A stretch of DNA of 64,000 nucleotides from Bacteroides fluxus YIT 12057 (GTDB lineage: Bacteria > Bacteroidota > Bacteroidia > Bacteroidales > Bacteroidaceae): positions 78,687 to 142,686 of the forward strand of contig NZ_GL882623.1 in the NCBI RefSeq assembly GCF_000195635.1, given 5' to 3'. Below are positions 30,351-52,746 of this stretch, one piece after another. The stretch's first letter is position 1. Each line of letters opens with the position of its first letter. A program made the translations under genes and the position numbers. The notes below the pieces were generated by a model that saw only the letters and a list, made by a program, of their open reading frames with translations, ran no database searches and had not been told where the DNA came from.

Positions 30351-33335
30351 TTAAAATGTTAATTCCAAACCGAAAATGAACTGTCTTGTATTCGGGTAAC
30401 CAAATTTCACCAAATTAGTATCCGGTTCAGGGTCATATCCAGTGAACTTTGTAACGGTCAAGAGGTTGCGGCCAGTAAAATATATGTTTATGTTTTGAAC
30501 ATCCAAGTGTTTTAATACGGATTTCGGAAGAGCATATTGTACTGTGATATTCTTCAGACGCAAGAATGAAGCATCTTCAATCAAGTGGTCATCGAACTGA
30601 ATGGCTTCGCTGGCAGCCGGTATGTCGGTAACCTGACCTGGAGTAGTCCACATATTCAGCATATTCGTTGTCTGGTTAACCTTCAAAGCTTGGCTCGGGT
30701 TCTCCAAAAAGTAGTTATCGTTACTAATCATGTATTTCTTCCAAGCCCATGTGAAGTCGGCACTTACGGTAACGCCTTTCCAAGAGGCTTCCGTTCCAAA
30801 ACCGCCAGTATAAGGAGCAAAACGATCTTTGCCAAGTAACACGGCATCACGCTCTTCGTTATATACCTTAGTCAAATTGCCATCTTTGTCATACCAAATC
30901 TGCTTACCATCGCGCGGATCTACACCAGCCCGACGAACAAAGAATAGTTCACCTACAGAGTGCCCTACTTTATATTTCAAACCATAGTTGGGCAAAGCGT
31001 ATTCATCGCGGCCGTTGAATAATTCTGTAATTTCATTTTTGTTATAATTGAAGTTGGCTTTCACGCTCCAACGGAAATCATTGGTATTGAAGATGTCCAC
31101 TGCTACATCCAGATCCACACCTTTGTTCACCATGGCGCCGATGTTGCCTGCACCACTGCTGAATCCGGTAGTCAGAGAGTAAGGAATATCCATCAACATG
31201 TCAGTTGTCTTTTTATGGTAGAAGTCTGCGCCTATGCTTAAGCGGTCGAATAACCGGAAATTAAGACCGATATTGGCAGAAGCTACCTTTTCCCACGTCA
31301 AGTCGTAGTTACTTGCTTGCGAAATACCTAAAGAACCTAAGCCGTTATAAGTCTTTCCGCTTCCAATCAAGCCGAAGTAAGCATAGTCGTCGATGCTGGA
31401 GTTACCGGTAGTACCATAACTGGCTTTTACAGAAAGCTCGTTTATCCAGTCTATATTGTCCATGAATCTTTCTTTTTTCAGATCCCACATGGCACCTACC
31501 GAGAAGAAGTTTGCCCAACGGTCATTCGGAGCGAATTTGGAACTTCCGTCGCGGCGGAAAGCCAAATCCACATAATACTTTTGAGCATAATTATAACTGC
31601 CAGTGAAGAAGTATGAGTTTACTACGGACTCAGTTAAAGCTTGGCTCAAATCAGTGGGAGCAACTTTTGTTCCTTGCTGCAGGAACAACTGACGTGAGTC
31701 TGTATGCCCGGATGACATTACTCCAAAACTTTCATCCTTGGCGATGATGGACTCTTGTCCGGCCAGCAGTGTAATGTTATGGTCTTCTATGTGAAACTTG
31801 TATTCAGCCGTATTCGTATAAGTCCAAGTGTAATATCTTTGGAAAGATTCGCTACGTGCACCGGTGTCTCCCTTATAGACGTCACCCATTGGTGTTTCAA
31901 GGTCATCAGTCGGGAAATAAATGTTTGAGCCGCGGTAGTCAAAAGCGTTTAAAGCCTGTTGAGCTCTAATGGTCAATCCTTTGATGGGAGTAAGCTCTTG
32001 AAATAAGTTGATATTGGCTGTCACTAAGCGTTTTTGAATGTCGCGTGTATCGTTGATGTAGTCCACTGTCGGTGTTTGAGAGAAGTGCAGATATTGCGCT
32101 TTGTCACCCCACGTAAGCTTTCCGTCATTGATAGTATAGTAGCGCGGAGAATCGTAGGGCATAGCTTTGCGGGCAAAGAATGCCGGGTTGGTACCATAGA
32201 TGGCATTAGTTGCCTCAATTTCATTGTTAGTATTATATTTTGCATAACCCAAATTGGACTGTATGCCTACTTTCAGCCATTTCTTCACGCGGGCATCGAA
32301 GTTGAAACGTAAGGATTCGCGACGTAAACCGGATTGATCAACTATACCTTGTTGGTCGTGATGGTTTAAAGATAAATAATAAGATGTGTTGCTGCCACCT
32401 CCACGTATGTTGGCATCAAGTGTATAAGTAGGTGCGCTTCCATCGAAAACTTCATCTCTCCAGTTAGTGTCAATTCCATACTTATTGATGGCATCCTGTG
32501 CTTCTTGTGACAACGGTTGCCCCAACATCTCGCGGAACTTCAAATATTGTTTGGAGTTCATCATTTCTACTTGGTCTTCAACCATGCTTGAGAAACCGAA
32601 TTGGCCTCGTAAAGTCACAGTTGCTTTTTCATTGAATTTTCCTTTCTTACTAGTGATTACAATGACGCCATTGGCTGCACGCGAACCGTAAATAGCTGTG
32701 GATGCAGCATCTTTTAGTACTGTGATGTTTTCAATGTCACCTGGGTTCAGCGAATTGAAAACTGTTGAAGAAATAGGTGAGCCATCTAATATAAACAAGG
32801 GAGTTGTACCAGCGTTAATAGAGCTTACACCGCGTAAGCGAATGGAAGCGGACTTGGAAGGGTCTCCTGAACCGGAAAGTACAGACAAACCAGATACTTG
32901 CCCTGATAGTGCATCTGTAAAATTGGTAGTAGGATTTTTTTCCAACTTCGTATTGTTCACGGTACTTACGGAACCTACCACAGAACCTAATTTTCTGCCT
33001 GTACCATAACCAACTACAATCACCTCGTCCAATAACTCTGTATTGGATTTCATGATGATTTTCATAGTAGGTTGAATATCAACTTCTTGCTCCTGCATAC
33101 CAATGTAAGAAATCACCAAAGTTTTCGCGGAACTTGGTACGTTCGGTAATGTAAAATCACCATCTACACCGGTAATGGCACCTATTTGTGTACCTTTTAC
33201 CAATACAGAGGCTCCAATAACTGGCTGCCCGTCTTCTTCAGAAATCACAACACCTGTAACTTTCTGTGTCTGGGCAGTTACTAGGCCTATTCCTACAAAA
33301 AGACAGGCCAATAACAGCATTAATTTTCTTTTCAT
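30351..33335 (-). CDS. SusC/RagA TonB-dependent transporter, the complete and promoter-linked copy
   Basis: A 994-aa protein. The signal peptide spans residues 1-21, and a carboxypeptidase-D-regulatory-like domain spans about 24-100. The TonB box is EVIVVGYGT, the plug is about 110-225 (SIRLRGVSSINAGTTPLFILDG, VLKDAASTAIYGSRAANGVI seen in pieces), and a 22-strand barrel ends FIFGLELTF. Only this one of the four susC bodies in the window has a start codon and signal peptide. Codons 68-77 are the 28-bp core shared with the three headless cassettes, so the first 67 residues form an exchangeable head. It heads the operon running down to 25046. Confidence 0.96.
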   Translation of the reverse strand: MKRKLMLLLACLFVGIGLVTAQTQKVTGVVISEEDGQPVIGASVLVKGTQIGAITGVDGDFTLPNVPSSAKTLVISYIGMQEQEVDIQPTMKIIMKSNTELLDEVIVVGYGTGRKLGSVVGSVSTVNNTKLEKNPTTNFTDALSGQVSGLSVLSGSGDPSKSASIRLRGVSSINAGTTPLFILDGSPISSTVFNSLNPGDIENITVLKDAASTAIYGSRAANGVIVITSKKGKFNEKATVTLRGQFGFSSMVEDQVEMMNSKQYLKFREMLGQPLSQEAQDAINKYGIDTNWRDEVFDGSAPTYTLDANIRGGGSNTSYYLSLNHHDQQGIVDQSGLRRESLRFNFDARVKKWLKVGIQSNLGYAKYNTNNEIEATNAIYGTNPAFFARKAMPYDSPRYYTINDGKLTWGDKAQYLHFSQTPTVDYINDTRDIQKRLVTANINLFQELTPIKGLTIRAQQALNAFDYRGSNIYFPTDDLETPMGDVYKGDTGARSESFQRYYTWTYTNTAEYKFHIEDHNITLLAGQESIIAKDESFGVMSSGHTDSRQLFLQQGTKVAPTDLSQALTESVVNSYFFTGSYNYAQKYYVDLAFRRDGSSKFAPNDRWANFFSVGAMWDLKKERFMDNIDWINELSVKASYGTTGNSSIDDYAYFGLIGSGKTYNGLGSLGISQASNYDLTWEKVASANIGLNFRLFDRLSIGADFYHKKTTDMLMDIPYSLTTGFSSGAGNIGAMVNKGVDLDVAVDIFNTNDFRWSVKANFNYNKNEITELFNGRDEYALPNYGLKYKVGHSVGELFFVRRAGVDPRDGKQIWYDKDGNLTKVYNEERDAVLLGKDRFAPYTGGFGTEASWKGVTVSADFTWAWKKYMISNDNYFLENPSQALKVNQTTNMLNMWTTPGQVTDIPAASEAIQFDDHLIEDASFLRLKNITVQYALPKSVLKHLDVQNINIYFTGRNLLTVTKFTGYDPEPDTNLVKFGYPNTRQFIFGLELTF
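33107..33134 (-). repeat. Recombination core, head copy
   Basis: A 28-bp core beginning AGTTCCGCGAAAACT and ending GATTTCTT, in frame at codons 68-77 of the complete susC (residues SSAKTLVIS). It is identical to the cores at 35449, 41100 and 47301. Identity with cassette 1 continues to 42 bp. The flanking CCAAGTT and AACTTTGG arms form an imperfect dyad around CCGCGAA, a shape expected for a tyrosine-recombinase site. Confidence 0.9.
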
Positions 33336-33391
33336 AAATTCTCTCTTAAAGTTTAACTTTACATTAATTGTTTCTTTACTCTAACAAAATG

Positions 33392-33421
33392 CAAATATAT
33401 TAATAAAACTGAAACGGGCAA
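33392..33421 (-). promoter_or_regulatory. Promoter of the expressed susC operon
   Basis: On the minus strand TTG (33419-33421) and TATATTTG (33392-33399) are spaced by 19 bp. The transcript would start about 50 nt before the susC ATG. It lies inside every possible inverting segment, so it moves with the susC head. Confidence 0.6.
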
Positions 33422-33787
33422 TTATTTTAATGAAAAATCCTTGTAATTCTATCAATTTGTTAATAAAAGAACGATTTTTATGCTTAACAACAGCTTTTTT
33501 GCATTTAAAAAACCTAAATAGAGTTGCATTAACTATCACTCTGATTCGCTTATTTTAGCATTCTATCTGGTGAAATACATATATTTTAAAACAAAATGGT
33601 TAAAAAAAAGAGGTGTACAAGCTCATTTTCTTTCTCTTCCAAGACAAATTGAATGTTCTTAAATACCAAAAAAGAACAAGAATATGAAACTAAAAGGCCC
33701 TTTTTACAGATATTAAGTCTTCTTCAACTCTCATAGTGCACAGAATATCGTCTTATTTGTTCATAGTATTAATCAAAAAAACAAGAG
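33422..33787. other. AT-rich divergent region between susC and the recombinase gene
   Basis: About 365 bp with no gene. It holds the upstream part of the susC promoter region and whatever drives the recombinase. The nearest match to a -7 element on the plus strand (TTATTTG near 33757) is imperfect. No repeat or operator was recognised. Confidence 0.5.
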
Positions 33788-34972
33788 ATGAGTAAAATTA
33801 TTTACAATTTGGTGTACAACAGAAAAAAATGCCTCAACAAAAAAGGGATGGCATTAGTTCAAGTAGAAGCTTATTTGGACAGAAAGAAAAAGTACTTCTC
33901 TACAAAAGTTTATTTAAAGCCTGAACAATGGGATACCAAAAAGCTTGTCGTTAAAAACCACCCTAATGCGGATGCTTTAAATCGATTGATATATGAGTAT
34001 ATGTCAAAGATAGAAAAAAAAGAATTGGAGTTATGGCAACAAGGACGACGTATTTCTTTGGAATTATTGAAAGATGTATTAGGTACAAGCGAGAACAAAA
34101 CTTCTTTTATCCCCTTTTTTAGGCAAGAAGTTACAAATTCCGCATTGAAAGAAAGTACTAAAAGAAATCATCTCTCAACTCTTACATTATTGCAAGAATT
34201 TAAAAAAGATGTATCATTCTCTGATTTAACATTTGAGTTTATATCATCGTTCGAATATTTTTTGCAGTCTAAAGGATATCACACCAATACGATCGCTAAG
34301 CATATGAAGCATCTAAAACGCCATATCAATGTTGCTATTAATAAAGATTATATGGAGATACAAAAATATGCTTTCCGGAAATATAAAATTAAAACCATAG
34401 AGAATAAACATACACATTTAGCTCCAGAAGAGTTGGAAAAGCTAGAGAGGCTGAATTTAATTGGGAGATACACTAAGTATCAGAAAACTTTAGATGCGTT
34501 TTTGTTTTGTTGTTATGCCGGAATGAGATATTCCGACTTTATCAGCCTAACACCTGATAATATCGTAGAAATACACAAAGAAACTTGGCTAATTTATAAA
34601 TCTGTCAAAACTAATACGGAAGTCAGACTACCATTATATCTTCTTTTTGAAAAGAAAGGTCTTGTCATTTTGGAAAAATATCAAGACAATATTCAAGACT
34701 TCTTCCATCTTAGAGATAATTCAAATGTAAACAAAGACTTGATTATTTTAGCTCGCTTAGCGGGATTGTCAAAAAAAATATCTTTCCATACAGCACGTCA
34801 TACTAATGCAACTTTACTAATATATAATGGGGTTAATATAACAACTGTACAAAAATTATTAGGACATAAAAGCGTGAAAACCACACAAGTATATACTAAT
34901 GTTATGGATATGACAATCGTTCACGACCTAGAAAAGAACCACTCACTTATACCTTGGAAGAAAAAGGTGTAG
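33788..34972 (+). CDS. Tyrosine recombinase (site-specific integrase), probable shufflon invertase
   Basis: A 394-aa protein in the usual Bacteroidetes integrase layout. An Arm-type domain spans residues 1-100 (YLKPEQWD), a SAM-like core-binding domain about 105-200, and the catalytic domain follows. The catalytic set is complete: R247 in AGMRYSDF, a Lys in the IYKSVKT beta-hairpin (K271 or K274), H334 and R337 in [12 protein letters not shown]360 in LLGHKS, and Tyr369 in TQVYTNV. It lies inside the segment bounded by the head core and cassette 1 core, beside the 5' end it would move. It is much richer in A/T than the backbone genes. No transposon or conjugation genes accompany it. Confidence 0.93.
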
Positions 34973-35046
34973 CCCTATCCTCCAAAGGGTGTAGCCTTGG
35001 CACTGAAAAGGTGTAGCCCTAACCGCATAAAGGCTACACCCTTTTT
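34966..35046 (+). repeat. Phased 22-bp repeats and inverted copy at the recombinase 3' end
   Basis: GGTGTAGCC occurs at 34966, 34988 and 35010, exactly 22 bp apart. The inverse GGCTACACC sits at 35032, again 22 bp on, followed by CTTTTT. The first copy contains the recombinase stop codon. The last pair can form a terminator hairpin. The regular spacing of about two helical turns also resembles a protein-binding array. Confidence 0.7.
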
Positions 35047-35448
35047 GATGTATATAAATTTGAATGATAAAATGATGTAGTTCTAAGACATTAGCGCCTT
35101 AAAAGCTTCATTTTTGGTGAATAAATGGTATAACATTGAATGATATATGTTTTTTCTTTCGCTTAAGAATCTGTACCATCAAATCTAAGCGTTTTCTATG
35201 TCAAGCTGATAATTCGTCTATATAAACTGTTGGATACAGTATAAATCACATTCAGACTCCCACACAAAAGTATTTGGTATTGAAAAAATCACTGGATGAA
35301 TGTTGTAATTGCCATAATATAGTAGCAAACGGGTAAGTTTATCTTGTTTTTACACCATCTTCAGTATATTGTAAGCCACATTTCATAATAACGATTTTTT
35401 CCTCCACTCCAAATATAGCACTGATTATAAGTCATATATATATTTATT
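35047..35448. other. AT-rich intergenic region before cassette 1
   Basis: About 400 bp without an open frame of note. The reading frame of cassette 1 meets a TAA at 35428-35430, so no start codon for the susC body exists here. Nothing else was recognised. Confidence 0.6.
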
Positions 35449-35476
35449 AGTTCCGCGAAAACTTTGGTGATTTCTT
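35449..35476 (+). repeat. Recombination core, cassette 1
   Basis: Identical over 28 bp to the head core (42 bp when extended rightwards), in inverted orientation to it. Sequence to the left is unrelated to the susC head. Confidence 0.9.
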
Positions 35477-38466
35477 ACATTGGTATGCAGACGCAAGAGG
35501 TGGCAATTAAACCAAGCGTAAAGATTATATTGAAATCTGATACAGAAGTACTTGATGAGGTACTAGTTACAGCTTATGGTACTGCAAAACGTTCGTCTTT
35601 TACTGGATCAGCCAGTGTTGTTTCTTCGGAAAAGTTAGAAAAAGTACAGACTTCAGACCCGACAAGTGCTTTAAACGGGCGAGTAGCCGGTGTACAATTT
35701 AATGCAGCCTCTGGGCAACCAGGCGGAAGCACTTCTAACAAAGACGGGCAAGCCAAAATTCGTATCCGTGGTATCAGTTCCATCAATGCTGCAAATGATC
35801 CGCTGATTATCCTCGATGGTGTACCATACGATGGCGATCTGAACAACCTTAATAATCAAGATATCGAGTCTATGACCGTATTGAAAGATGCCGCTTCCAA
35901 TGCTTTGTATGGTGCACGTGGCGCTAATGGTGTTATTATGATTACCACTAAAAAAGGGAATAGTGGGCAAGCAACAGTCACTTTGGATGCTAAATGGGGA
36001 TCCAATTCACGAGCTAGCCGCAATTATGACATGATTAGCAATCCGGGACAATATTATGAAATGTATTATGGAGCATTGAATAATTATTTCTTAGGAAGAG
36101 GATTGAGCACCAATGATGCTTATCAACAAACTATGGCTCATATGACTGCATACGATGATTATGGTTTGGGATACAATGTGTACAGCCTGCCTAATGGTGA
36201 ATACTTAATTGGAGAAAACGGAAAACTAAATCCCAATGCAACTTTGGGTAACTTAATAAACGTAGATGGACAACAATTCTTGGTAAGACCAGACAAATGG
36301 ATTGATGAAGCTTACCGCAATAGCCTCCGGCAAGAATACAATGTGAGTATTACAGCCGGTAACGATAAGTCATCTTTTTATGCTTCTGTTAACTATTTGA
36401 ATAATGAAGGTATTACTGCCAACTCGGACTATGAACGTTTAACAGGTCGATTAAGGGCTGATTATCAAGTAAAAGAGTGGTTGAAAGTTGGCGCTAATAT
36501 GGCCTATACTCACTATGAAGCTAATTCGTTGAATGAAGACGGAAGCAGTGGCTCATCAGGCAACGTATTTGCTATTGCTACACAGATCGCGCCAATCTAT
36601 CCATTATTTTTACGTGACGGCAGCGGTAATATCATGCAAGACTCAAACGGTTTCATTTGGTATGACTTTGGTCAAGGTGAAAATGCAGGATTGGGGCGTC
36701 CCATTTATTTCGGTTCAAATGCCATTGCTGAGTCCCGCCTTAATACTAACAATGGCGAAGGTAACTCCATGAATGCATCTGGGTTCTTTGAGGTACGTTT
36801 CTTGAAAGATTTTAAGTTCACTTCTACCAATAGTGTATATGTGGATGAAACTCGTACTACACAGGTGACCAACCCATATTATGGACAATATGCTAGTTCA
36901 AACGGTATCCTATACAAATACCACACGCGCGATCTCTCTTATAATTTCCAACAATTACTGACTTGGAAAAAGGACTTTGGACTCCACAATGTGGATATCA
37001 TGTTAGGTCATGAATCGTATCGTCAAAAATATTACTATATATTGGCCAACAAGTCGAACATGTTTGACCCAACCAATCATGAATTGGCGGGTGCCATTAC
37101 CAATGGTAACTCAGATTCATATACAACGGACTATAATACGGAAGGTTACTTTGGCCGCATTCAATACGACTACGCTGAAAAATACTTCGTTTCCGGTTCC
37201 TACCGCCGCGACGCTTCTTCCCGCTTTCATCCGGACAATCGTTGGGGTAACTTCTGGTCGGCCAGTGCAGCTTGGAACATTACACATGAAGATTGGTTTG
37301 ATATCGAATGGGTTAATATGTTAAAGTTTAAAGTATCATATGGTTCACAAGGTAACGATAATATTGGAAACTATCGTTATGTAAATACATACAATATTGT
37401 AAACTCCTCTGGTAATCCGGCTGCTGTTCCCTATACTTTAGGGAATAAGGATATCACTTGGGAAACTAGTGCCAACTTTAACATGGGTATAGATTTCGAG
37501 TTCTTCAAACAACGTTTAACTGGTACCATCGAATTCTTTAACCGTAAAACTACGGATATGCTTTTCTCATTCCCTTTGCCTCCTTCTTACGGTTATACCT
37601 CCTATTATGCTAATGTAGGCGATATGCGTAACTTGGGATTGGAAGTGGAATTAAAAGGCACATTAATTAAGACTAACGATTTCCAATGGGATTTGGGACT
37701 AAACATGACCCACTACAAAAATAAAGTCACTTATCTACCCGAAGAGCGCAAGACGATGGAAGTAGATGGTGTAAAAGGTTACAGCAGCGGTAATAAATAT
37801 TATGGAGAAGGGGTATCACTCTATACTTTCTATTTAAACAAATATGCAGGCGTAAATGAAGACGGTGAATCATTGTTCTACAAAAACATAAAAGATGAAA
37901 ACGGTAAAGTGATTGGGAGGGAAACCGTGACTAATCCTTCACAGGCCGACTACTATTTGTGTGGGACTTCACTGCCGGATGTATATGGAGGTTTTAATAC
38001 GGCATTCAACTATAAAGGTTTTGACGTTTCTATTGATTTTGCTTATCAAATTGGCGGACAAGTATATGATAGCGACTATGCTAGTATGATGTCTTCACCA
38101 ACAGCACAAAGTAGAGGGAAAGCCTTCCATAAAGACTTGCTTAATTCCTGGACAACAGGTAATACTGCAAGCAACATTCCCCGCTTCCAATATGGTGACG
38201 AATACACAGCTTCCTCTTCTGACCGCTTTTTGACTAGCGCCTCTTATTTAAGCTTGCAAAACATTAATGCCGGTTATACTTTACCCACACGTATCTGCCG
38301 AACCTTTGGAGTAGAAAAACTTCGCGTATATATGGCAGCCGATAATGTATATCTGTGGTCAAAGCGTAAGGGCATGGATCCGAGACAAAGTATTAGCGGT
38401 ACCACCACAACCTCTTTCTATGCGCCTGTACGCACCATCTCTGGTGGTATTACATTAACTTTCTAA
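35449..38466 (+). CDS. Silent SusC body, cassette 1 (headless)
   Basis: An open frame of 1005 codons beginning at the core (SSAKTLVISYIGMQTQEVA). It has no ATG start, signal peptide or full N-terminal domain; an in-frame stop lies 20 bp upstream. The rest is an intact SusC: TonB box EVLVTAYGT, plug (KIRIRGISSINAANDPLIILDG in pieces; TVLKDAASNALYGARGANGVI in pieces), and a barrel to the terminal ITLTF. Joined to the 67-residue head it would make 1072 aa. No frameshift is visible, which argues for a maintained reservoir rather than a pseudogene. Confidence 0.88.
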   Translation, partial: SSAKTLVISYIGMQTQEVAIKPSVKIILKSDTEVLDEVLVTAYGTAKRSSFTGSASVVSSEKLEKVQTSDPTSALNGRVAGVQFNAASGQPGGSTSNKDGQAKIRIRGISSINAANDPLIILDGVPYDGDLNNLNNQDIESMTVLKDAASNALYGARGANGVIMITTKKGNSGQATVTLDAKWGSNSRASRNYDMISNPGQYYEMYYGALNNYFLGRGLSTNDAYQQTMAHMTAYDDYGLGYNVYSLPNGEYLIGENGKLNPNATLGNLINVDGQQFLVRPDKWIDEAYRNSLRQEYNVSITAGNDKSSFYASVNYLNNEGITANSDYERLTGRLRADYQVKEWLKVGANMAYTHYEANSLNEDGSSGSSGNVFAIATQIAPIYPLFLRDGSGNIMQDSNGFIWYDFGQGENAGLGRPIYFGSNAIAESRLNTNNGEGNSMNASGFFEVRFLKDFKFTSTNSVYVDETRTTQVTNPYYGQYASSNGILYKYHTRDLSYNFQQLLTWKKDFGLHNVDIMLGHESYRQKYYYILANKSNMFDPTNHELAGAITNGNSDSYTTDYNTEGYFGRIQYDYAEKYFVSGSYRRDASSRFHPDNRWGNFWSASAAWNITHEDWFDIEWVNMLKFKVSYGSQGNDNIGNYRYVNTYNIVNSSGNPAAVPYTLGNKDITWETSANFNMGIDFEFFKQRLTGTIEFFNRKTTDMLFSFPLPPSYGYTSYYANVGDMRNLGLEVELKGTLIKTNDFQWDLGLNMTHYKNKVTYLPEERKTMEVDGVKGYSSGNKYYGEGVSLYTFYLNKYAGVNEDGESLFYKNIKDENGKVIGRETVTNPSQADYYLCGTSLPDVYGGFNTAFNYKGFDVSIDFAYQIGGQVYDSDYASMMSSPTAQSRGKAFHKDLLNSWTTGNTASNIPRFQYGDEYTASSSDRFLTSASYLSLQNINAGYTLPTRICRTFGVEKLRVYMAADNVYLWSKRKGMDPRQSISGTTTTSFYAPVRTISGGITLTF

Positions 38467-38486
38467 TAATTATAAATTAATTGAAT

Positions 38487-40094
38487 ATGAAAAATATATC
38501 TAAAATACTATTAAGCGTCTGCTGCTCTGCCTCTCTCATGTTGAGTAGTTGTATTGATGAAACAATGCCTACCAATGTCGCTACTACTGACCAATTGGGA
38601 GCTTCAGATAAGGCGACAGAAGCGCTGTTATGGGCCATGCCAGCATTTGCCAATAAAGTTGAAAATGTAGCAGGAAATGATTGGGAATGGGGATACGGCT
38701 CGTTGATTCACATTCGTGACGTAATGACCGGTGATCTTGCCATACAAGCTAGTGCTTATCAGATTTGGTACCAATTTTGGTTTACCAATACCGGTATAGG
38801 TCCTAACACGGCTGCCAGTCAATTTATCTGGAACTATTATTGGCAGTTTGTGCAGACTGCTAATAATATGATTAGTGCCGTCAACACTGACAATGCAACC
38901 GACACTCAATTGGGATACCTAGGAGTAGGCCATGCTTTTCGTGCTATGTTGTATCTAGATATGGCACAATCTTATGAGTTTTTGGAGAACGACAAGATTT
39001 CTCCCATAAATAGGGATGGAAATAACGTTTTACATCTTACTGTCCCTATTGTAACAGAAACAACTACGGAAGAAGAAGCACGTAATAACCCTCGTGTTAC
39101 ACGGGAAGAGATGGCTGTGTTCATCCTAAATGACCTAAACAAGGCTGAGGAATATATCCCCAACTTAACCTCTATGATTAAAACGCTTCCTCACTTAGAT
39201 GCCGTATATGGCCTAAAAGCACGCTATTATATGTGGCTAGGAGAATATACCAATGCAAAAGACTATGCACGTAAAGCTATTAATACAAGTAAAACATCTC
39301 CAATGACAGAGGAACAATGGTTGAGTACCACAAGTGGCTTTAATGACATCTCCTGTTGGATGTGGGGTTCGCAAATGCAGTCCGAAGATGAGGCTGTACA
39401 GACAGGTATCTTAAATTGGGCTTCTTTTATGTCACCGGAGGCTTTGTATGGATATGCTTGGGCCAACGGAGGCGGTATTATGAGTAAGATTGACGCTAAG
39501 CTATACGCTAGAATCAAGGATACAGATTTTCGTAAAAAAGCGTGGAAGGCGCCTGCTGGTAGCGCGTTGGAAGGGCAGACCCCTTATATTGACCCGTCTA
39601 TAGACGACTATTTACCTGCATATACAGGTGTTAAGTTCCGTCCGGGTAATGGTAACATGAATGATTACACCGTAGGTTCAGCATCAGCTTATCCATTCAT
39701 GCGTGTAGAAGAAATGTATCTAATAGAGGCAGAAGCTGCTGCTCATCTTAATGCAGGCGAAGGTAAATCTCTATTAGAGTCGTTCATGATAACTTACCGT
39801 GACCCTTCTTATGTATGTAATAACCCGGATATTATTGACGAGATACTTCTGCAGAAACGTATTGAGTTGTGGGGTGAAGGTACTACTTTTTATGACATCA
39901 AGCGCTTAAATCTGTCCGTTACACGTGGATACTCTGGGACGAATTGGAGTGATGCTGCACGTCTTAATACAAACGGCAGACCTGCATGGATGAACTTCTG
40001 TATTGTTCAAACAGAAGAAAATAACAATGAGGCTCTAAGGGGATATGATAATCCCGATCCAAGTGGATGTTATGATACATGGTTAGGAGAATAA
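38487..40094 (+). CDS. SusD/RagB family lipoprotein, cassette 1
   Basis: A 535-aa SusD-like protein with lipobox LMLSSC and typical core segments (GHAFRAMLYLDMAQSYEF, MRVEEMYLIEAEAAAHL, LLQKRIELWGEGTTFYDIKRLN). The ATG at 38487 is preferred over a TTG two codons upstream. It lies 20 bp after the silent susC body and has no promoter of its own that I can see, so it should be silent until inversion. A 19-bp perfect hairpin follows at 40110. Confidence 0.92.
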   Translation: MKNISKILLSVCCSASLMLSSCIDETMPTNVATTDQLGASDKATEALLWAMPAFANKVENVAGNDWEWGYGSLIHIRDVMTGDLAIQASAYQIWYQFWFTNTGIGPNTAASQFIWNYYWQFVQTANNMISAVNTDNATDTQLGYLGVGHAFRAMLYLDMAQSYEFLENDKISPINRDGNNVLHLTVPIVTETTTEEEARNNPRVTREEMAVFILNDLNKAEEYIPNLTSMIKTLPHLDAVYGLKARYYMWLGEYTNAKDYARKAINTSKTSPMTEEQWLSTTSGFNDISCWMWGSQMQSEDEAVQTGILNWASFMSPEALYGYAWANGGGIMSKIDAKLYARIKDTDFRKKAWKAPAGSALEGQTPYIDPSIDDYLPAYTGVKFRPGNGNMNDYTVGSASAYPFMRVEEMYLIEAEAAAHLNAGEGKSLLESFMITYRDPSYVCNNPDIIDEILLQKRIELWGEGTTFYDIKRLNLSVTRGYSGTNWSDAARLNTNGRPAWMNFCIVQTEENNNEALRGYDNPDPSGCYDTWLGE

Positions 40095-40109
40095 TAAACT
40101 GACATTACT

Positions 40110-40162
40110 AAGAGGCCGATGTTTCAAAAATGTATTTGAAACATCGGCCTCTTGTTTTATTT
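40110..40162 (+). terminator. Terminator of cassette 1
   Basis: A 19-bp perfect stem (40110-40128 with 40135-40153) with a 6-nt loop, followed by GTTTTATTT. Confidence 0.85.
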
Positions 40163-41099: not shown

Positions 41100-41127
41100 A
41101 GTTCCGCGAAAACTTTGGTGATTTCTT
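41100..41127 (+). repeat. Recombination core, cassette 2
   Basis: Identical over 28 bp to the other three cores; identity with cassette 1 continues with a single T to C change through the following codons (MQTQEVA). Confidence 0.9.
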
Positions 41128-43952: not shown

Positions 43953-43977
43953 AACATAATCTCCAAAAATAAAGAAA

Positions 43978-45396
43978 ATGAAAAAGATACATACAAAATT
44001 AATATTGATGGCTGCAATGGTGGTAACTATGACCTTTACTTCCTGCGACGGCTATCTTGATGTAACGCCATCCGATGCTGTGGATAGCGATGAAGCCATC
44101 ACCAATTTGGAAGATGCGCAAATAGCCTTGAATGGCGCCTACTATGGACTGATTACTAATACTTACTATGGAAATGACTTTATAGCCCGTGCCGAAGTTG
44201 GAGGCGAAGACGTACAGACTCTTTCGCTTGGCAAACGCACAGAGAACTATTACCGTTTTATGTATAGACAGAATACTTCTCCATCGGGTTTATGGAGTAT
44301 CCCTTATAAAGTTATCAACCGTATTAATGTATTGTTGGGCGCCATAGAATCCGGGGTGATTCCCGCTTCCGACGAACTGAACCAGGTAAAAGGTGAAGCA
44401 TTGGCACTCAGAGCACTTTGCCATTTCGATTTGTTGCTGACCTACGGTACACCATATTTGAAAGATAATGGAGCGTCTTTAGGTGTACCTTTAGTGGATA
44501 AGGTATTGCTCCCCAATGAATTACCTTCTCGCTCTACAGTAGCCCAAGGCTACACCATGGTTTTAAAGGACTTGGAAGATTCCAAAGGGCTGATGAGTGA
44601 GAATGTAGTGAATGGACACTTCAATAGATGGGCTGCCAAAGCATTGCTGGCACGTGTCAACCTACACAAGGGAGATTATGACGCAGCATACAATAATGCC
44701 AAAGACGTAGTTGAAAACGGACCCTACAAATTGATTGAAAATGAAAATTACGTGGCGTCTTGGCTTGAAGACTTCACAAGTGAATCTGTTTTTGAACTGG
44801 AAATCACATCGCTTGCTTCCGGTAATCGCGAATTATTTGGTTACGTGGCTCATCCTACAGGATATGCTGCTGTCATTGGAACGCAAGATTTCATAAACTT
44901 GTTGAATGAAGACCCCAAAGATGTCCGTCTAGGATTGTTACAGACAGATTCTGAGGGCAAAAAGCGCTTTATCAACAAATATCCCGGACGTGCCGGTGCT
45001 ATCGCTGTAAACAATATACGTGTGATTCGTCTTTCAGATGTATATTTGATGGCAGCGGAAGCCGCATTAAGAAAAAGTTCCATTGATCAGACAACCGCAG
45101 ACAATTGTTTGAATGATATCGTGAAAAGGGCAAATCCTAACGCACCGAAAGTAACTGCAACTATCGACTTAATCCTCAAGGAAAGAAGAAAAGAATTAGT
45201 GATGGAAGGACATCGCTTGCATGATATTCTTCGTTTAGGACTGAGTGTAACCCGTACAGGAGGGGATCATTTCTTGAATAAAGTTGACTTAGTGACGGTA
45301 ACCTGGGATGATTACCGTAGCATTATGCCCATTCCACAAGCAGAAATAGATGCAAATCCTAATATCCGAGATCAACAAAATCCTGGTTATGAATAA
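43978..45396 (+). CDS. SusD/RagB family lipoprotein, cassette 2
   Basis: A 472-aa SusD-like protein with lipobox TMTFTSC (C23). Core blocks include GEALALRALCHFDLLLTYG, AKALLARVNLHKGDYDAAYNNA, VYLMAAEAALRKSS and KERRKELVMEGHRLHDILRLG, ending with IPQAEIDANPNIRDQQNPGYE. It follows the silent susC by 25 bp and is the last gene of the cassette. No extra lipoprotein follows. Confidence 0.93.
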   Translation: MKKIHTKLILMAAMVVTMTFTSCDGYLDVTPSDAVDSDEAITNLEDAQIALNGAYYGLITNTYYGNDFIARAEVGGEDVQTLSLGKRTENYYRFMYRQNTSPSGLWSIPYKVINRINVLLGAIESGVIPASDELNQVKGEALALRALCHFDLLLTYGTPYLKDNGASLGVPLVDKVLLPNELPSRSTVAQGYTMVLKDLEDSKGLMSENVVNGHFNRWAAKALLARVNLHKGDYDAAYNNAKDVVENGPYKLIENENYVASWLEDFTSESVFELEITSLASGNRELFGYVAHPTGYAAVIGTQDFINLLNEDPKDVRLGLLQTDSEGKKRFINKYPGRAGAIAVNNIRVIRLSDVYLMAAEAALRKSSIDQTTADNCLNDIVKRANPNAPKVTATIDLILKERRKELVMEGHRLHDILRLGLSVTRTGGDHFLNKVDLVTVTWDDYRSIMPIPQAEIDANPNIRDQQNPGYE

Positions 45397-45422
45397 GATG
45401 TGAAATAAGTTCTCTAAAAAAC

Positions 45423-45459
45423 AAGAGGGTGTGTCAATTTGATGCACCTTCTTTTTTAT
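45423..45459 (+). terminator. Terminator of cassette 2
   Basis: AAGAGGGTG (45423-45431) pairs with CACCTTCTT (45445-45453) with one G-U pair, followed by a T-run. The next 190 bp hold no gene, only short CCGTGAYGGATA repeats near 45573-45605 with a TATCCGTCA inverse upstream. Confidence 0.6.
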
Positions 45460-45647
45460 ATTGAAGGCAATGGCAAAGAAGGCAAAGCCTCCATCATAAA
45501 GTTTAAAAACGTAATTTATCCGTCATGCTGTCACGAAATGCACTCTATTGACTTGATACATAGATATCTATCCCGTGACGGATACCCGTGATGGATACGT
45601 GATGGCTCCTTTATCTGTCAAACAGACTACAAATAAGGAATTGATCA

Positions 45648-46775: not shown

Positions 46776-46792
46776 AAAGTGAATGTTTTACA

Positions 46793-46800
46793 CAAAAGTA
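46793..46800 (-). promoter_or_regulatory. Putative promoter -7 element of the ATPase gene
   Basis: The minus strand reads TACTTTTG, 18 bp before the ATG. It shows that the ATPase can be transcribed independently of the shufflon promoter. Confidence 0.45.
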
Positions 46801-47300
46801 ATTATAGCTTTATTATAATACAAATATCATAATGCTTTTTTATAGATTCTCTAGTCTAATTTCATATAAATAGAAAGAATTAGAATTCCATTTTCTATTT
46901 TATAATAAGTAAGCGATGACTTTATGGTGAAAAACAGACTTCTAATTTATGGTAAAGTTTCATGTTTTTTAAATAATTAGTGCTGGAAATAAAATTAACA
47001 ACTAAGGAAATGTTATCAAAATAAAGAACTGAAAAGACTGTTAATGATAAATCAAGTAATTTATTTTTAGAAATTACTCCTTATAAAAATGGCAAGTATG
47101 TTGCTGATAGATGTGTTTCCTTGAAAACCGACTTTAACATGTTAATAATAAGGTTATTATCTAATATTATAGTAGAAGTTCGGTAGGAGTTTATTATTTA
47201 TATACCTATCTATACAGCCTTATAAGCAAGGTTAAGTATATGAAAATAGTATTTGACTATCCTTTTACTATATTGAAAATCAATAATATACCTATATTGT
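46801..47300. other. AT-rich spacer before cassette 3
   Basis: About 500 bp without a convincing gene, RNA or repeat. No start codon joins in frame to the susC body that begins at the core. Confidence 0.5.
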
Positions 47301-47328
47301 AGTTCCGCGAAAACTTTGGTGATTTCTT
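47301..47328 (+). repeat. Recombination core, cassette 3
   Basis: 28 bp identical to the other cores. Right of it the sequence diverges at once (TTGTAGGTATGCG against ACATTGGTATGCA), which sets the right edge of the shared core. Confidence 0.9.
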
Positions 47329-50240
47329 TTGTAGGTATGCGTACGCAAGAGCTTGCTATTAAGCCTAATATGAAAGTGTTGCTTAAGTCTGATTCTGAGT
47401 TGCTTGATGAGGTAATGGTAGTAGCTTATGGTACAGCCAAAAAATCATCTTTTACGGGTTCGGCCTCTACCATTGACAGCAAGAAACTGGCATCTCGTCC
47501 CATTACGAATGTTACTAAAGGCTTGGAAGGACAAACTACTGGTGTCTTGACTACTTCCGGTTCCGGACAGCCCGGTGAATCTTCCTCGGTGGTGATTCGC
47601 GGTTTTGGTTCTATCAATGCCTCAAAAAATCCGTTGTATGTAGTGGACGGTATTCCTTTTGATGGTTCTTTAAGCTCTATCAACCCTTCTGATATTGAAA
47701 CCATGACTATTCTGAAAGATGCGTCGGCAGGTGCTCTTTACGGTGCCCGCGGTGCCAATGGTGTGGTGATGATTACTACTAAGAAAGGTAAAGAAGGCAA
47801 AACGCAAGTAAACTTACGTTCTACTGTAGGATGGGCTTCGCGTGCCATTAAGGAATATGATATGCTCGACCAAAAAGAGTTCGTCCAATTGAGCTATGAA
47901 GCATTGCGCAATGGCTATGTGTTTGAAAACGGCTATTCATGGGCCAATGCTGAAAGCACGGCCCGCGAACGTTTGGGTGCCACGCTCGGTGGTGAACGCT
48001 ACAATCCTTTCAAAAACTATGCTTGGAATGAGATTATCAATCCGGAAACCGGTCAGGTACAAGCAGATGCTCAATCTGCATGGAATGAAAGCTGGATGGA
48101 CGCTTTGCAGAAGAATGATGCGTTCCGCCATGAACATCAGCTGTCTTTGAGTGGTGGTAACGAAAAAACGAAATATATGTTTTCTTTGGGTTACTTAAAT
48201 GAAGATGGTATTCTGACCTCTACCGGTTTTCAACGTTACAACGCACGTGCTAACGTCAGTTCTACTGTAACCGATTGGTTTACGGCTAATTTGAACACTT
48301 CGTTGGCTCACTCTTTGCAGAACTTCAGCGATTATTCCGGGAGTTCGGTATCAAATGTATGGTACTCGGCGCAGTTTGTTTCTCCTTTGTTCCCTATGTA
48401 TATGAAAGACCTGGAAGGGAAAAACATATTGGGTGAGGATGGCAGACCGCAGTTGGATTATGGTGAAAACGGACGTCCGGGCAGTTACAACGACTATAAC
48501 CCGCTGGGTGGTTTGCTCGATGATAAATCGGATGTGAAAAATGACGTAGCCAGTGTGCGTACCGGATTGACATTTGGTTCGGACAGCGATAATTTTGGGA
48601 TATTTAAAGGTCTGAAGCTTGCTTTGAATTTCGGTGTGGATTATCGCAATCAGCTACAAAAAGCATATATGAATATGCACCACGGTAATCAAGCTACTGC
48701 CGGTGGTTTATTGATGAAGTATAATACTCGTATGCAGAGTTATACCTTCAATCAATTGCTGACGTGGAACCGTTCGTTCGGCATGCACAATTTTGACCTT
48801 TTGGCTGGTCACGAATTCTATGCATACAAATATGAATATATGAATGCGGGAAAGACCAACCTGGTTGACGGTATTCTTGAATTGCGTCCGGGTACAACTC
48901 TTTATAGTGCGGATTCTTATACCAATAATTATAGAATAGAATCATGGTTGGGGCGTTTTAACTACAACTATGACGAGAAATATTATTTCTCTGCTTCTTT
49001 GCGTACAGACGGCTCTTCCCGTTTCTATAAAGACAACCGTTGGGGTACTTTCTGGTCGTTGGGCGGTAACTGGCGCATCTCCCGTGAAGCTTTTATGGAA
49101 GACGTGGAATGGGTGAAAAATCTTTCATTGAAAGTAAGTTACGGTGAGCAAGGTAATGATAATATAGGTAGCCTGTATGCTTGGCAGAGCTTGTATGACT
49201 TGAGTTGGGCCAATGCCTCCCAAATCGGTGGTATGGTCAGCTCTTTGGAAAATAAAAATGTTTCTTGGGAAAAGAATGGCAACTTCAATGTCGGGGTAGA
49301 GGCCAGTCTGTTTGACGACTTTATCAACTTGAGTGTGGAGTATTTCAACCGTAAAACCAAGAACATGCTGCTTTCTTATCCCATGGCTACTTCTACGGGA
49401 TTCAATGGCTACAACGCCAACGTAGGTGATATGCGCAATTCCGGTGTGGAAGCAGAAATCAAAATCAGCCCCATCAGAACTAACGATGTGAAATGGAACA
49501 TTACGTTGATGGGTTCTCATGTAAAGAACAAAGTGCTGAAATTGACCGGCGAGACTCCCGAAATTATCTCGGGCATTTACAGTACCAAAGAAGGTTCACC
49601 CATCAATACATTCTATATGGCGAAGTCGGCAGGCGTTGATCCCGCAACCGGTGCACAGCTCTATTGGGTGTACGATAAGGATGAACACGGTAATATCGTG
49701 AACGAACGTATCAGCAGTGACTACACCAAGGCTGCCAACAGCAAATATTATCAGGGTAATCGTATTCCCGATTTGTATGGAAGCATCGCTACGGACTTGT
49801 CTTGGAAAGGATTCGACTTGAATATACTGACCACTTACTCCATTGGCGGCAAAGTGTTTGACGGATTGTATCAAGGCTCGATGAACAATATGTATTATAA
49901 CGCCAACTGGAACAAACACGCTCTGCGTCGCTGGCAGAAGCCGGGAGACGTAACGGATGTTCCTCGTATTGAGGTAGGTGGAAAGTCAACGACTACCAAC
50001 CGCTTCTTGGTGGATGCTTCTTATTTCTCTATCAAGAACATCACGTTGGGATATACGTTGCCGAAGGCGTGGATGAATAAAGTTAAACTGAACTCGGTAC
50101 GTATATTTACTTCGGTAGATAACTTGGCACTGTTTACTCATCTGGACGGTATGGATCCGCAATACAACTTCTCCGGTCAGACGGATTATGCTTATTCTCC
50201 TAACAAGACTTGGTCTGTAGGTTTTGATATTAATTTCTAA
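47301..50240 (+). CDS. Silent SusC body, cassette 3 (headless)
   Basis: An open frame of 979 codons from the core (SSAKTLVISFVGMRTQELA). It has no ATG start or signal peptide. It has TonB box EVMVVAYGT, a plug with VVIRGFGSINASKNPLYVVDG-type and TILKDASAGALYGARGANGV segments, and a complete barrel ending WSVGFDINF. With the head it would be 1046 aa. Base composition is less A/T rich than cassette 1, so the cassettes may have separate origins. Confidence 0.88.
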   Translation, partial: SSAKTLVISFVGMRTQELAIKPNMKVLLKSDSELLDEVMVVAYGTAKKSSFTGSASTIDSKKLASRPITNVTKGLEGQTTGVLTTSGSGQPGESSSVVIRGFGSINASKNPLYVVDGIPFDGSLSSINPSDIETMTILKDASAGALYGARGANGVVMITTKKGKEGKTQVNLRSTVGWASRAIKEYDMLDQKEFVQLSYEALRNGYVFENGYSWANAESTARERLGATLGGERYNPFKNYAWNEIINPETGQVQADAQSAWNESWMDALQKNDAFRHEHQLSLSGGNEKTKYMFSLGYLNEDGILTSTGFQRYNARANVSSTVTDWFTANLNTSLAHSLQNFSDYSGSSVSNVWYSAQFVSPLFPMYMKDLEGKNILGEDGRPQLDYGENGRPGSYNDYNPLGGLLDDKSDVKNDVASVRTGLTFGSDSDNFGIFKGLKLALNFGVDYRNQLQKAYMNMHHGNQATAGGLLMKYNTRMQSYTFNQLLTWNRSFGMHNFDLLAGHEFYAYKYEYMNAGKTNLVDGILELRPGTTLYSADSYTNNYRIESWLGRFNYNYDEKYYFSASLRTDGSSRFYKDNRWGTFWSLGGNWRISREAFMEDVEWVKNLSLKVSYGEQGNDNIGSLYAWQSLYDLSWANASQIGGMVSSLENKNVSWEKNGNFNVGVEASLFDDFINLSVEYFNRKTKNMLLSYPMATSTGFNGYNANVGDMRNSGVEAEIKISPIRTNDVKWNITLMGSHVKNKVLKLTGETPEIISGIYSTKEGSPINTFYMAKSAGVDPATGAQLYWVYDKDEHGNIVNERISSDYTKAANSKYYQGNRIPDLYGSIATDLSWKGFDLNILTTYSIGGKVFDGLYQGSMNNMYYNANWNKHALRRWQKPGDVTDVPRIEVGGKSTTTNRFLVDASYFSIKNITLGYTLPKAWMNKVKLNSVRIFTSVDNLALFTHLDGMDPQYNFSGQTDYAYSPNKTWSVGFDINF

Positions 50241-50259
50241 CTTCTAAACTGATATAACA

Positions 50260-51801
50260 ATGAAATCTATATTTAAATATATGTTTGTAGGGCTGCTCTC
50301 CTGTGGTACGTTGACTTCTTGCTTGGATGGCGCTTTAGAGACATTTCCCACCGACTCAATGTCGGGTGATGGCTTGTTGAGCAACGCTTCTTCGGCCTTG
50401 GTTCCTTTGAATGGGGTGTATCGCTCCATGTATTCGGCTTGGTCACCTTCGGGAAATACTCACCAAGCTTTTGGCATTTCGGCGTACACCTTGATGGCGG
50501 ATGTTATGGGTGAGGACCATATTATGGCCGATCAAGGCAGTGGTTGGTTCTGGTACGATTGCCTTTACAATGTAAAGCCGAGATACACTTCAAAGTCATG
50601 GCGCTCTTATGATTTATGGAATGCTTACTACACTTGGGTGTCGAATGCCAACTATATTTTGGCAGCCGAAACAACGATGGGGGGCGCTACCGCTGATGTA
50701 AACTATGTAATCGGTCAGGCATACGCCATTCGTGCTTACTCTTATTTTATGTTGGCGCAGAGTTTTGCCCGCACTTACAAAGGGCATGAAACGGAACCTT
50801 GTTGCCCTATCTATACAGAACCTACTGTAGCTGGTACTGAAGGTCAGCCTCGTGCGACAGTACAAGCTGTTTACGATCAGATCACTTCTGATATAGATAA
50901 AGCTGTTGAACTCTTGGAAGGTACCAAGACGAAACATATCAGCCACATGGGATATGCCGTGGCTTTAGGTATCAAGGCGCGCATTGCGCTGGTAATGGAA
51001 GAATGGAATACGGCTAAAGAAGCTGCTCATGAGGCGATTAAGGCTAGCGGATGTGTGATTATTCCGGTAGATCAGTTTAAAGGCGTGAATAGCACTAAGG
51101 CTAAAAATGTGATGTGGGGAGCGGAAATTATTGCCGACCAGTCAGGTATGTATGCCAGCTTTTTCTCACACATGGATGCTTCGGCAGGCAAATATGGGCA
51201 AAGTGCCTTGAAGCAAATTAATAAAGAACTTTATGCTAAGATGGGGAGCGAAGATGCCCGTAAGGTTTGGTGGAATCCTGCCGACAAAGCGAATGAAAAC
51301 GGTGGTTACCAACAAGAAAAGTTTAAGTTCTCTGATATTAAGACTTGGATGGGCGACTACGTGTGGATGCGCGTAGAAGAGATGTACTTGATTGCCGCTG
51401 AGGCTGAATGCCGTTTGGGTGGTGCTGAAGAGGCCAATGCCATAAAAGACTTGATGGCACTCATGGCAAAGCGTGACAAAAATTATAAATGTGAGAAAAG
51501 CGGTACGGCTTTAGGAGTACTCTCTTCGGACGAAACGGGTTCGCTGCTCGAAGAAATCATTACGCAACGTCGTATTGAACTGTGGGGAGAAACCGGACGT
51601 ATCTACGACCTTCGCCGCTTGAAACAAGGTTTCCGTCGTACCTCTGCAATGGGGTGGCCGAAGGATGCGTTGCTGGGTAACCGTCCTACTAACGACCCTG
51701 AATGTTATATGTGGGTGTTGACAATTCCGCAAAGTGAATTTGACGGGAACGTGAACATGGATCCTGAAAGTGACCAAAACCCTACGGGAGACTATAAATA
51801 A
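50260..51801 (+). CDS. SusD/RagB family lipoprotein, cassette 3
   Basis: A 513-aa SusD-like protein with lipobox GTLTSC (C21). SusD core blocks are seen: GQAYAIRAYSYFMLAQSF, ALGIKARIALVMEEWNTAKEA, VRVEEMYLIAAEAE-like and TQRRIELWGETGRIYDLRRL. The C-terminus ends DPESDQNPTGDYK. It lies 19 bp after the silent susC and 32 bp before a third gene. Confidence 0.94.
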   Translation: MKSIFKYMFVGLLSCGTLTSCLDGALETFPTDSMSGDGLLSNASSALVPLNGVYRSMYSAWSPSGNTHQAFGISAYTLMADVMGEDHIMADQGSGWFWYDCLYNVKPRYTSKSWRSYDLWNAYYTWVSNANYILAAETTMGGATADVNYVIGQAYAIRAYSYFMLAQSFARTYKGHETEPCCPIYTEPTVAGTEGQPRATVQAVYDQITSDIDKAVELLEGTKTKHISHMGYAVALGIKARIALVMEEWNTAKEAAHEAIKASGCVIIPVDQFKGVNSTKAKNVMWGAEIIADQSGMYASFFSHMDASAGKYGQSALKQINKELYAKMGSEDARKVWWNPADKANENGGYQQEKFKFSDIKTWMGDYVWMRVEEMYLIAAEAECRLGGAEEANAIKDLMALMAKRDKNYKCEKSGTALGVLSSDETGSLLEEIITQRRIELWGETGRIYDLRRLKQGFRRTSAMGWPKDALLGNRPTNDPECYMWVLTIPQSEFDGNVNMDPESDQNPTGDYK

Positions 51802-51833
51802 TCGAAGATGTATTAATATTAACAGTATAAATC

Positions 51834-52706
51834 ATGAAATATTTAAATAAAACTTTAGCATCCTTGTTGTTGCTGACTGCTATCCTGTTTGTCGGTTGTA
51901 ACACAGAGCAGGAAGGTGCTATTTACAAGGCAGACGAACAAAGTTTCAGCTTTGGAACTTCAGCTTTGGCTGATCAGGTTGTAACGGTGGGAAAACCTGA
52001 TTTTACCGTAGATTTGTATCGTGCGAAACTTGGCGAGCCTGCTTCCGGAAACATTGCTCTTTTCGCCTATAAGTTGGCCTCTGACGGAAAAACAAAAATT
52101 CCTCAAGAAGGTTACTCTGTAAGTAACTACAATTTTGATGCGGATTCCGGTATTGCCCAAGTTACGGTCAATGCCGAGCCGCTGGCTGTAGGAGACCATG
52201 TGAAAATAGAACTGACGGTTGAAACAGATGGTGTGGCGTTGAGTGGATCTACGGTAGCTACTATGTCGGTAACGAAAGATTATAGTTGGAAGCCGATTGG
52301 AACAGGCGTTTGGAAAGATGGCATCGTTTGCTCGCTGTTTGGTGTACCTGTCGGTGTAACTTGGGAAGTGGAAGTAGAAGAAGCTGTAGAATTGTCCGGC
52401 ATGTATCGTGTTATTAATCCTTATGGATATGGAAAATGTCCGTGGGTAGAAGAAAGCGAAGTAACCATTGACCCTTGCTATGTGAAAATCAACGCAAGTA
52501 ATCCGGATAAGGTGTCTTTGGCCAATCAGAAGTTGGGCTTTGCCTGGGATTACGGTGAATTCATGGCGGGTTCAACGCAAAATGTCGGTTACCCGGGAGA
52601 TTTCGGTACTAAAGTGGGTAAGGACATTGATTTTGGTGCATTGTTTGTTGCTATGGGAGGAGATATTTATACGATTACTGCCGGTGGCGGTTTGACATTG
52701 CCGTAA
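51834..52706 (+). CDS. Surface lipoprotein of cassette 3 (Calx-beta-like N-terminus)
   Basis: A 290-aa protein with lipobox ILFVGC (C22) followed by NTEQEG. Residues 35-140 have the strand pattern of Calx-beta/DUF1735-like domains (VTVGKPDFTVDLYRAKLGE, GIAQVTVNAEPLAVGDHVKIEL). The second half is beta-rich and unassigned. It is the counterpart of the 27897-28805 lipoprotein in the expressed operon. Cassettes 1 and 2 lack such a gene. It ends before a 15-bp perfect hairpin. Confidence 0.8.
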   Translation: MKYLNKTLASLLLLTAILFVGCNTEQEGAIYKADEQSFSFGTSALADQVVTVGKPDFTVDLYRAKLGEPASGNIALFAYKLASDGKTKIPQEGYSVSNYNFDADSGIAQVTVNAEPLAVGDHVKIELTVETDGVALSGSTVATMSVTKDYSWKPIGTGVWKDGIVCSLFGVPVGVTWEVEVEEAVELSGMYRVINPYGYGKCPWVEESEVTIDPCYVKINASNPDKVSLANQKLGFAWDYGEFMAGSTQNVGYPGDFGTKVGKDIDFGALFVAMGGDIYTITAGGGLTLP

Positions 52707-52746
52707 GCGATATAGGATTTATCTGTAATCCTAAAATGAATATTGG

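Follow-up and report, generated by a model that had tools for sequence, protein, structure and literature searches.

A putative recombinase-linked switch of one expression head among four SusC bodies in Bacteroides fluxus YIT 12057

The window analysed here, a whole stretch of 64,000 nucleotides from the genome of Bacteroides fluxus YIT 12057 (4.33 Mb in 97 contigs), encodes between marC and an hflX-type GTPase gene (a name that we assume from the GTP-binding domains of its product) four SusC/SusD units and one tyrosine recombinase. The leftward unit is complete, and the three SusC frames reading rightward, referred to as cassettes 1 to 3, are headless, that is, they lack the first 67 codons of the complete gene. 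An initial annotation of this DNA had proposed that the locus switches among four nutrient receptors by inversion. The comparisons described below make it very probable that one head is swapped among four SusC bodies through inversion at 28-bp joints by the adjacent recombinase. Bacteroides shufflons of this kind are already known from the Tsr0667 and BT2267 SusC/SusD systems of B. fragilis and B. thetaiotaomicron, and what is added here is comparative evidence pointing to a head swap inside the gene and to a fixed chromosomal slot. The literature searched, which, like the papers cited by PMC identifiers below, is represented by passages only, yielded no account of the locus for B. fluxus.

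The joint is a core of 28 bp, AGTTCCGCGAAAACTTTGGTGATTTCTT, which in the complete susC covers codons 68 to 76 and the first base of codon 77. The window holds four exact copies of it, one in the headed gene and one at the beginning of each headless frame, and all four joints lie in one reading frame. A chance origin of the repeat was rejected on the basis of these four exact copies, the absence of a fifth one in the genome at up to three mismatches, and the zero genomic matches of the reversed core used as a control pattern. Plain protein conservation is also insufficient as the cause of the identity of the cores, because the core is absent (at up to three mismatches) from the other 49 SusC matches of the genome above the TIGR04056 cut-off (56 matches, 53 of them above it), and because heads and headless copies resemble each other more within than between genomes, as detailed below. 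All three headless bodies are above this cut-off, and their alignments start at profile positions 39–42, compared to position 1 in the headed gene.

Upstream of the core, headless frames 1, 2, and 3 show 6, 19, and 8 open codons, none of them an ATG. The initial annotation had stated that these frames have no start codon at all, which holds for ATG but not in full, as a TTG is found inside the core (codon 6) and mechanical callers of open reading frames (ORFs) start there. It is unlikely that this TTG gives rise to a working receptor, because no TAnnTTTG box occurs within 300 bp upstream of any of the three headless cores and because the signal peptide of the head is missing. The 28-bp core was also considered as a genus-wide site and rejected, since at up to two mismatches it is present in three of 301 family genomes, B. 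fluxus included. The part common to relatives comprises about 17 bp, AGTTCYGCRAANACTYT, a pattern chosen as a regular expression, so that its invariant columns are partly so by construction. At up to one mismatch, it has three extra matches in the B. fluxus genome, none of which opens a long frame, in a search that more divergent sites would escape.

The core falls inside the CarboxypepD_reg-like domain of the complete SusC (CarbopepD_reg_2 at residues 26–107, in a protein that also holds a Plug domain), and the head therefore supplies the promoter region, the start codon, the signal peptide (read by eye), and the first half of this domain. The predicted −7 box, TATATTTG, is taken by us to be a promoter box of the TAnnTTTG type. 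Similar heads have been found in relatives, and the box is located in a conserved block of 31 aligned heads, in which each column reaches at least 80% and TTTG at least 95%.

The recombinase gene is divergent from the head and lies within any segment that runs from the head core to one of the cassette cores. Its frame is open and encodes the R, K, H-x-x-R-H, and GH motifs, which are presumably the residues expected in the catalytic site. The initial annotation was right about a tyrosine recombinase between the headed gene and the cassettes, and the same can be said of the complete leftward susC with its promoter and signal peptide (the latter by eye), of the three rightward frames of 950–1005 codons that start at one identical core, and of the intactness of the three cassettes, each followed by a susD gene. 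Relatives of the recombinase (E ≤ 1e-60) occur in 91 of 149 genomes of the genus, and in 65 of the 89 more complete ones.

In the proposed mechanism, the recombinase is predicted to invert the DNA between two joints by a conservative reaction, which would move the head from body to body. The candidate invertible segments span 33107–35476 (2.4 kb), 33107–41127 (8.0 kb), and 33107–47328 (14.2 kb), and each of them would carry the promoter, the head, and the recombinase. Placing the head on cassette 1, 2, or 3 would yield receptors of 1072, 1017, or 1046 residues, replacing the present one of 994. Since every body comes with a SusD of its own, the exchange would extend to the complete transporter, with only one being made at a time, and such a switch would probably serve as bet-hedging among surface receptors. 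At the end of the recombinase gene (34962–35048), three copies of the motif GGTGTAGCC are found 22 bp apart, followed by an inverted copy and a T run; these repeats may form a terminator-like hairpin in which more than one of the copies could act as the left arm, or they may be binding sites of the arm type.

Cores were examined in relatives at 24 loci: the window, 10 loci from genomes of the genus, and 13 loci of species or bins with names (G numbers denote genomes and L numbers loci). The regular expression detected cores in 22 of them, 66 in total (22 headed and 44 headless), and exactly one head is present in 20 of these 22 loci, as a conservative inversion would leave. The genome G422 has two heads together with two recombinases, and in L025 (Candidatus Parabacteroides) zero heads are counted, the head-like start being truncated and the joint not fitting the pattern. 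No core of this form was detected in L021 (HV4-6-C5C) or in G337, where a run of N directly follows the head. The two heads of G422 (L079 and L080) point apart, as an inverted duplication of the head module.

With ten further stretches (34 loci), the orientation of the module was surveyed using marC, the neighbouring HAD gene, hflX, and the DUF4954 gene as marks. Among the 24 loci that could be scored (one head, one recombinase, and at least one mark), both orientations are equally represented. In 12 of them the head points toward marC (the window, G371, G417, G352, G335, B. gallinarum, the SRR17794261 bin, B. faecis, B. pyogenes, G339, G413, and G404), and in the other 12 the module is flipped (G269, G219, G366, G373, B. 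muris, B. clarus, UBA939, UW_MP_BACTE3, G320, G377, G427, and G191). The 10 unscored loci include G422 with its two heads, G257 and G327 without a head, and seven without marks.

Bodies appear in both states as well. A comparison of 62 bodies (cross-genome pairs with at least 72% identity over at least 850 amino acids) yielded 17 pairs, eight of them with both members headless, eight in opposite states, and one with both members headed. At the protein level, the headed body of G352 and the headless one of G366 share 99.4% identity, and their DNA matches at 96% over 8.3 kb starting at the first base of the core, whereas in the 50-bp blocks before the core 14–22 of 50 positions match. A weaker case is that of cassette 3, which is 72.6% identical to a headed body of B. 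gallinarum, and the headed body of the window has no counterpart above 47.5% among the bodies compared. G366 also holds an inverted duplication of 8.2 kb (99.7% identical); in each copy, one end coincides exactly with the core, suggesting the joint as a place where cassettes can be acquired.

For the window itself, a database search with the cassette-3 body retrieved the protein P0242 (1046 residues, 38 contigs), which corresponds, residue for residue, to the 67-residue head of the window joined to the 979-residue body of cassette 3, and which is not one frame in the window as assembled. P0242 shows that another joining of head and body exists in nature, and the identity of both parts implies that the swap is recent. 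The exact cassette-3 body from residue 21 on is also found headless in P0241, P0243, P0244, P0245, P0248, and P0253 (4, 1, 65, 1, 80, and 1 contigs, respectively; 152 in total), although 38 versus 152 is no measured frequency, since contig entries may be redundant. Together with the opposite states of one body that break at the core and the 12/12 split of orientations, P0242 supports the inversion switching claimed at the outset; as for its extent, the head has been seen on cassette 3, but not directly on cassettes 1 and 2. Among the relatives listed, those with a head that come nearest are P0009 for cassette 1 (75% identical, with the exact head of the window) and P0122 for cassette 2 (91% identical, with 62 of the 67 head positions present). 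In a looser test among the best 120 relatives listed for each cassette, a head of this type was recognized in 42, 23, and 47 of them for cassettes 1, 2, and 3, respectively.

Several points weigh against a head swap by this recombinase. The window's own assembly shows one state only, and the evidence is at the level of assemblies, not reads. The source of P0242 is marked "-", a mark that stands for window-encoded proteins and evidently for close copies too (the headless forms of cassette 3 also bear it), and the genomes that hold it cannot be told from the listing. Among the best 120 relatives listed for cassette 1 and for cassette 2, none is a near-identical form with a head; near-identical members may be hidden in 90% clusters, and since the clusters at the top of the two lists, with 49 and 30 members, may conceal such forms, this result is silence and not absence. 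The assignment of the switch to this enzyme, among the 29 Phage_integrase matches of the genome, is based on linkage, and the counts over relatives are uncorrected for kinship. Finally, degenerate loci exist: the head of G397 is broken at the core, that of L025 is truncated, and G257 and G327 hold a recombinase without a head. In these last two genomes, the recombinase has been kept in the marC/HAD–hflX interval, and searches with AGTTCYGCRAANACTYT gave one match in G257 and two in G327, none of them opening a long frame; they may represent a reduced slot, or an enzyme acting elsewhere.

The single arrangement in the assembly and the degenerate loci of relatives would also agree with a historical relic, in which past inversion shaped the locus but no longer occurs within populations of this species. 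This explanation is judged very improbable, because the identical head and identical body of P0242 indicate a recent swap, and because the recombinase retains an open frame with its motifs.

The similarity of the joints themselves also speaks for a head that is moved among bodies through inversion. Out of 35 positions, head and headless copies from one genome differ at 2.6 on average and those from different genomes at 6.9, and none of 5000 permutations of the genome labels reaches the observed within-genome value; the permutation takes no account of phylogeny, and a duplicated cassette (in G366) is counted in the within-genome set. A better control is provided by the same genes farther along, where the ratio of within- to between-genome distance per 12-codon block rises from 0.40 through 0.76 and 0.82 to 0.98 (codons 37–48) and then stays at 0.94–1.02. 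Repeated exchange would be expected to produce joints homogenized in this manner. A rival process to be considered here is gene conversion, or homologous recombination of susC genes at their conserved 5' ends, as it could likewise move heads and homogenize cores; it would account for the extension of the homogenization past the core to about codon 36, and the early part of the bodies is indeed conserved protein sequence. Nevertheless, conversion would copy heads, yet one head is found in 20 of the 22 loci with such cores; moreover, in half of the scorable loci the module as a whole has the reverse orientation between marC and hflX, the first core base is precisely where the match between G352 and G366 begins, and no core (at up to three mismatches) occurs in the remaining 49 SusC matches of B. 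fluxus above the cut-off. It is therefore regarded as very improbable. The missing ATG, TAnnTTTG box, and head would point to headless frames that act as silent donors or are pseudogenes in decay, without an on-state of their own; this possibility deserves hardly any weight, as all three are open over 950–1005 codons and above the SusC cut-off, cassette 3 is found headed in P0242, and the headless bodies of relatives that end inside the fetched stretch measure 912–1040 codons.

Table 1. Features of the SusC/SusD locus and its chromosomal anchors (positions in the window).
Feature	Positions	Strand	Remarks
marC	24253..24906	+	left chromosomal anchor
Fimbrillin-like protein (Mfa_like_1)	25046..26161	-	last gene before marC
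C10 peptidase with I69 inhibitor-type prodomain	26166..27866	-	
Calx-beta domain protein	27897..28805	-	downstream of the headed SusCD
SusD/RagB partner of headed SusC	28819..30333	-	
Complete SusC gene	30351-33335	-	promoter box, start codon, signal peptide (by eye); 994 residues
SusC body now on the head, RagA-like	30351..33134	-	927 codons from core
Core of headed gene, 28 bp	33107..33134	-	encodes SSAKTLVIS
Expression head	33135..33335	-	start codon, signal peptide (by eye), first half of CarboxypepD_reg-like domain; 67 codons
Predicted promoter -7 box TATATTTG	33392..33399	-	64 nt upstream of ATG
Tyrosine recombinase	33788..34972	+	Arm5, SAM5, Phage_integrase domains
Core of cassette 1	35449..35476	+	exact copy
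Cassette 1 headless SusC body	35449..38466	+	1005 codons
Cassette 1 SusD	38481..40094	+	
Core of cassette 2	41100..41127	+	exact copy
Cassette 2 headless SusC body	41100..43952	+	950 codons
Cassette 2 SusD	43978..45396	+	
Core of cassette 3	47301..47328	+	exact copy
Cassette 3 headless SusC body	47301..50240	+	979 codons
Cassette 3 SusD	50260..51801	+	
Cassette 3 third gene	51834..52706	+	no Pfam or NCBIfam match
hflX-type GTPase	53150..54412	+	right chromosomal anchor

The predicted head swap can be compared with several known systems. Nakayama-Imaohji reportedly described in 2009 the Tsr0667-controlled SusC/SusD shufflons of Bacteroides fragilis, whose consensus site is said to be AGTYYYN4GDACT. 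The four cores of the window agree with this consensus at 14 of 15 positions, with A instead of G at position 11, and in the cores of relatives picked by the regular expression this A is fixed by construction. The features shared with the Tsr0667/BT2267 type are the linked recombinase with arm-binding, SAM-like, and catalytic domains, and the presence of several SusC/SusD pairs, here one headed and three headless. In the Rci shufflon of plasmid R64, a tyrosine recombinase acting on repeated sites joins a fixed N-terminal part to alternative C-terminal parts. The likeness to the window lies in this constant N-terminal part; the variable part is said to be a pilin tip in R64, whereas in the window it is a receptor body of 927–1005 residues plus a gene for a partner lipoprotein. 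The R64 Rci shufflon is named in a passage of PMC11852207.

In the passages available, Tsr0667 is described as producing shufflon-type inversions at three SusC/SusD clusters of B. fragilis (PMC4747536; PMC11852207) and as acting at nine further regions (PMC4747536). As in the window, one tyrosine recombinase is thus associated with several SusC/SusD pairs and multiple inversions. However, while nine other regions are served there, the genome of B. fluxus shows no further susC site at up to one mismatch of AGTTCYGCRAANACTYT, a threshold that sites of greater divergence would escape. BT2267, from the BT2260–BT2269 region of the B. thetaiotaomicron MAFF locus, has been reported to be homologous to the invertase of B. 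fragilis, and the pairs BT2268/69 and BT2264/63 are described as facing opposite ways (PMC6080902). This region resembles the window in its opposed SusC/D pairs near a recombinase, but its bodies are different, and the passages of PMC6080902 suggest promoter inversion and not an intragenic head swap. In the locus L020 of B. faecis, located beside marC, a headless cassette at 12026 matches BT2264 (5fq6_B) with 2242 bits, and the head and recombinase are 84% and 73% identical to those of the window, respectively. With L020 as the link, these similarities indirectly place the window in the same locus family as BT2260–BT2269.

Region EE of B. fragilis NCTC 9343, 638R, and HMW615 has been described as an "intergenic shufflon", in which a single promoter is placed by inversion before one or another ragA/susC-ragB/susD pair, the array is not the same from strain to strain, and the repeats overlap the start codon (PMC5729914). 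As far as these passages go, alternative SusC/SusD pairs are served by a single promoter through inversion, as predicted for the window. In contrast to those repeats, the joint of the window lies 67 codons inside the gene, and the signal peptide and half a domain are therefore shared. Orientation differences near SusC/SusD genes and "intragenic shufflons" have also been reported in gut inflammation (PMC10939037, in the passages available).

Regarding the cargo of the receptors, the solved structure that best matches the headed SusC is RagA (6sli_B, 643.9 bits), the best chain other than RagA reaching 354.7 bits. RagA of Porphyromonas gingivalis is described in passages of two papers as an oligopeptide importer (PMC7782687; PMC11817032). 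An oligopeptide is likely to be the cargo of the headed transporter, and peptide uptake the role of the present on-state, because the RagA-like SusC is accompanied by a same-strand SusD, a Calx-beta protein, a C10 peptidase, and a fimbrillin-like protein. Cassettes 1 and 3 have 8aa4_A as their best match (345 and 404 bits), followed by RagA (314 and 346 bits). It is plausible that a switch changes the substrate range, and for the headed copy peptide is more likely than glycan. With respect to phages, nutrient-receptor shufflons of B. thetaiotaomicron have been reported to shift after phage exposure, and the deletion of the receptor genes that shifted left a direct role as phage receptors unsupported, according to passages of the same paper (PMC12548429).

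A broader proposal, which is put forward tentatively and which we consider rather more doubtful than probable, is that the marC–hflX slot holds across Bacteroides a rotating head with its own recombinase, which docks to an open-ended library of bodies whose cassettes are gained, duplicated, and lost in an integron-like manner. Much of this library would import peptides, so that the genus would vary its protein feeding and not only its use of glycans.

If the switch works as predicted, each cell of the species would display a single one of the four nutrient receptors at any moment, and clonal populations would be mixed both in diet and in surface. Receptor lists drawn from one assembly would then mislead, because headless genes look partial as long as the head is not attached to them. 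Convenient primer sites for measuring the switch across numerous species are offered by the fixed slot together with the shared head and both orientations, and with a RagA-like body next to a C10 protease, peptide uptake becomes a substrate class that can be tested.

Some core-like sites lie far from a recombinase. In G337, three susC-type frames (L117, L119, and L121; G337:C61:719433-731585) start at such sites about 120 kb from the recombinase and with a spacing of about 6 kb, two of them without a head and the third preceded by N; it is possible that they form an array served in trans. G397 likewise has one susC-type frame far from its own recombinase. In L013, L014, and L019, contigs break off about 130 bp or less from a core, and, besides the case of G337, runs of N are found within 150 bp of 3 of 85 cores; these breaks could come from mixed populations or from the short repeat itself.

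Between cassette 3 and hflX, the window shows a match to a Group II intron domain (RF02001, 51.8 bits) at 52872–53049 (+), and no ORF of 100 amino acids in the surrounding span of 52707–53149; the match is probably a remnant. An ATPase_2/AAA-type gene is encoded between cassettes 2 and 3 (45648–46775, -), and a decayed relative of it, in pieces about 50% identical, between cassettes 1 and 2 (40275–40768, -). DNA relatives of this gene are present in the loci of G371, G269, G417, and B. clarus.

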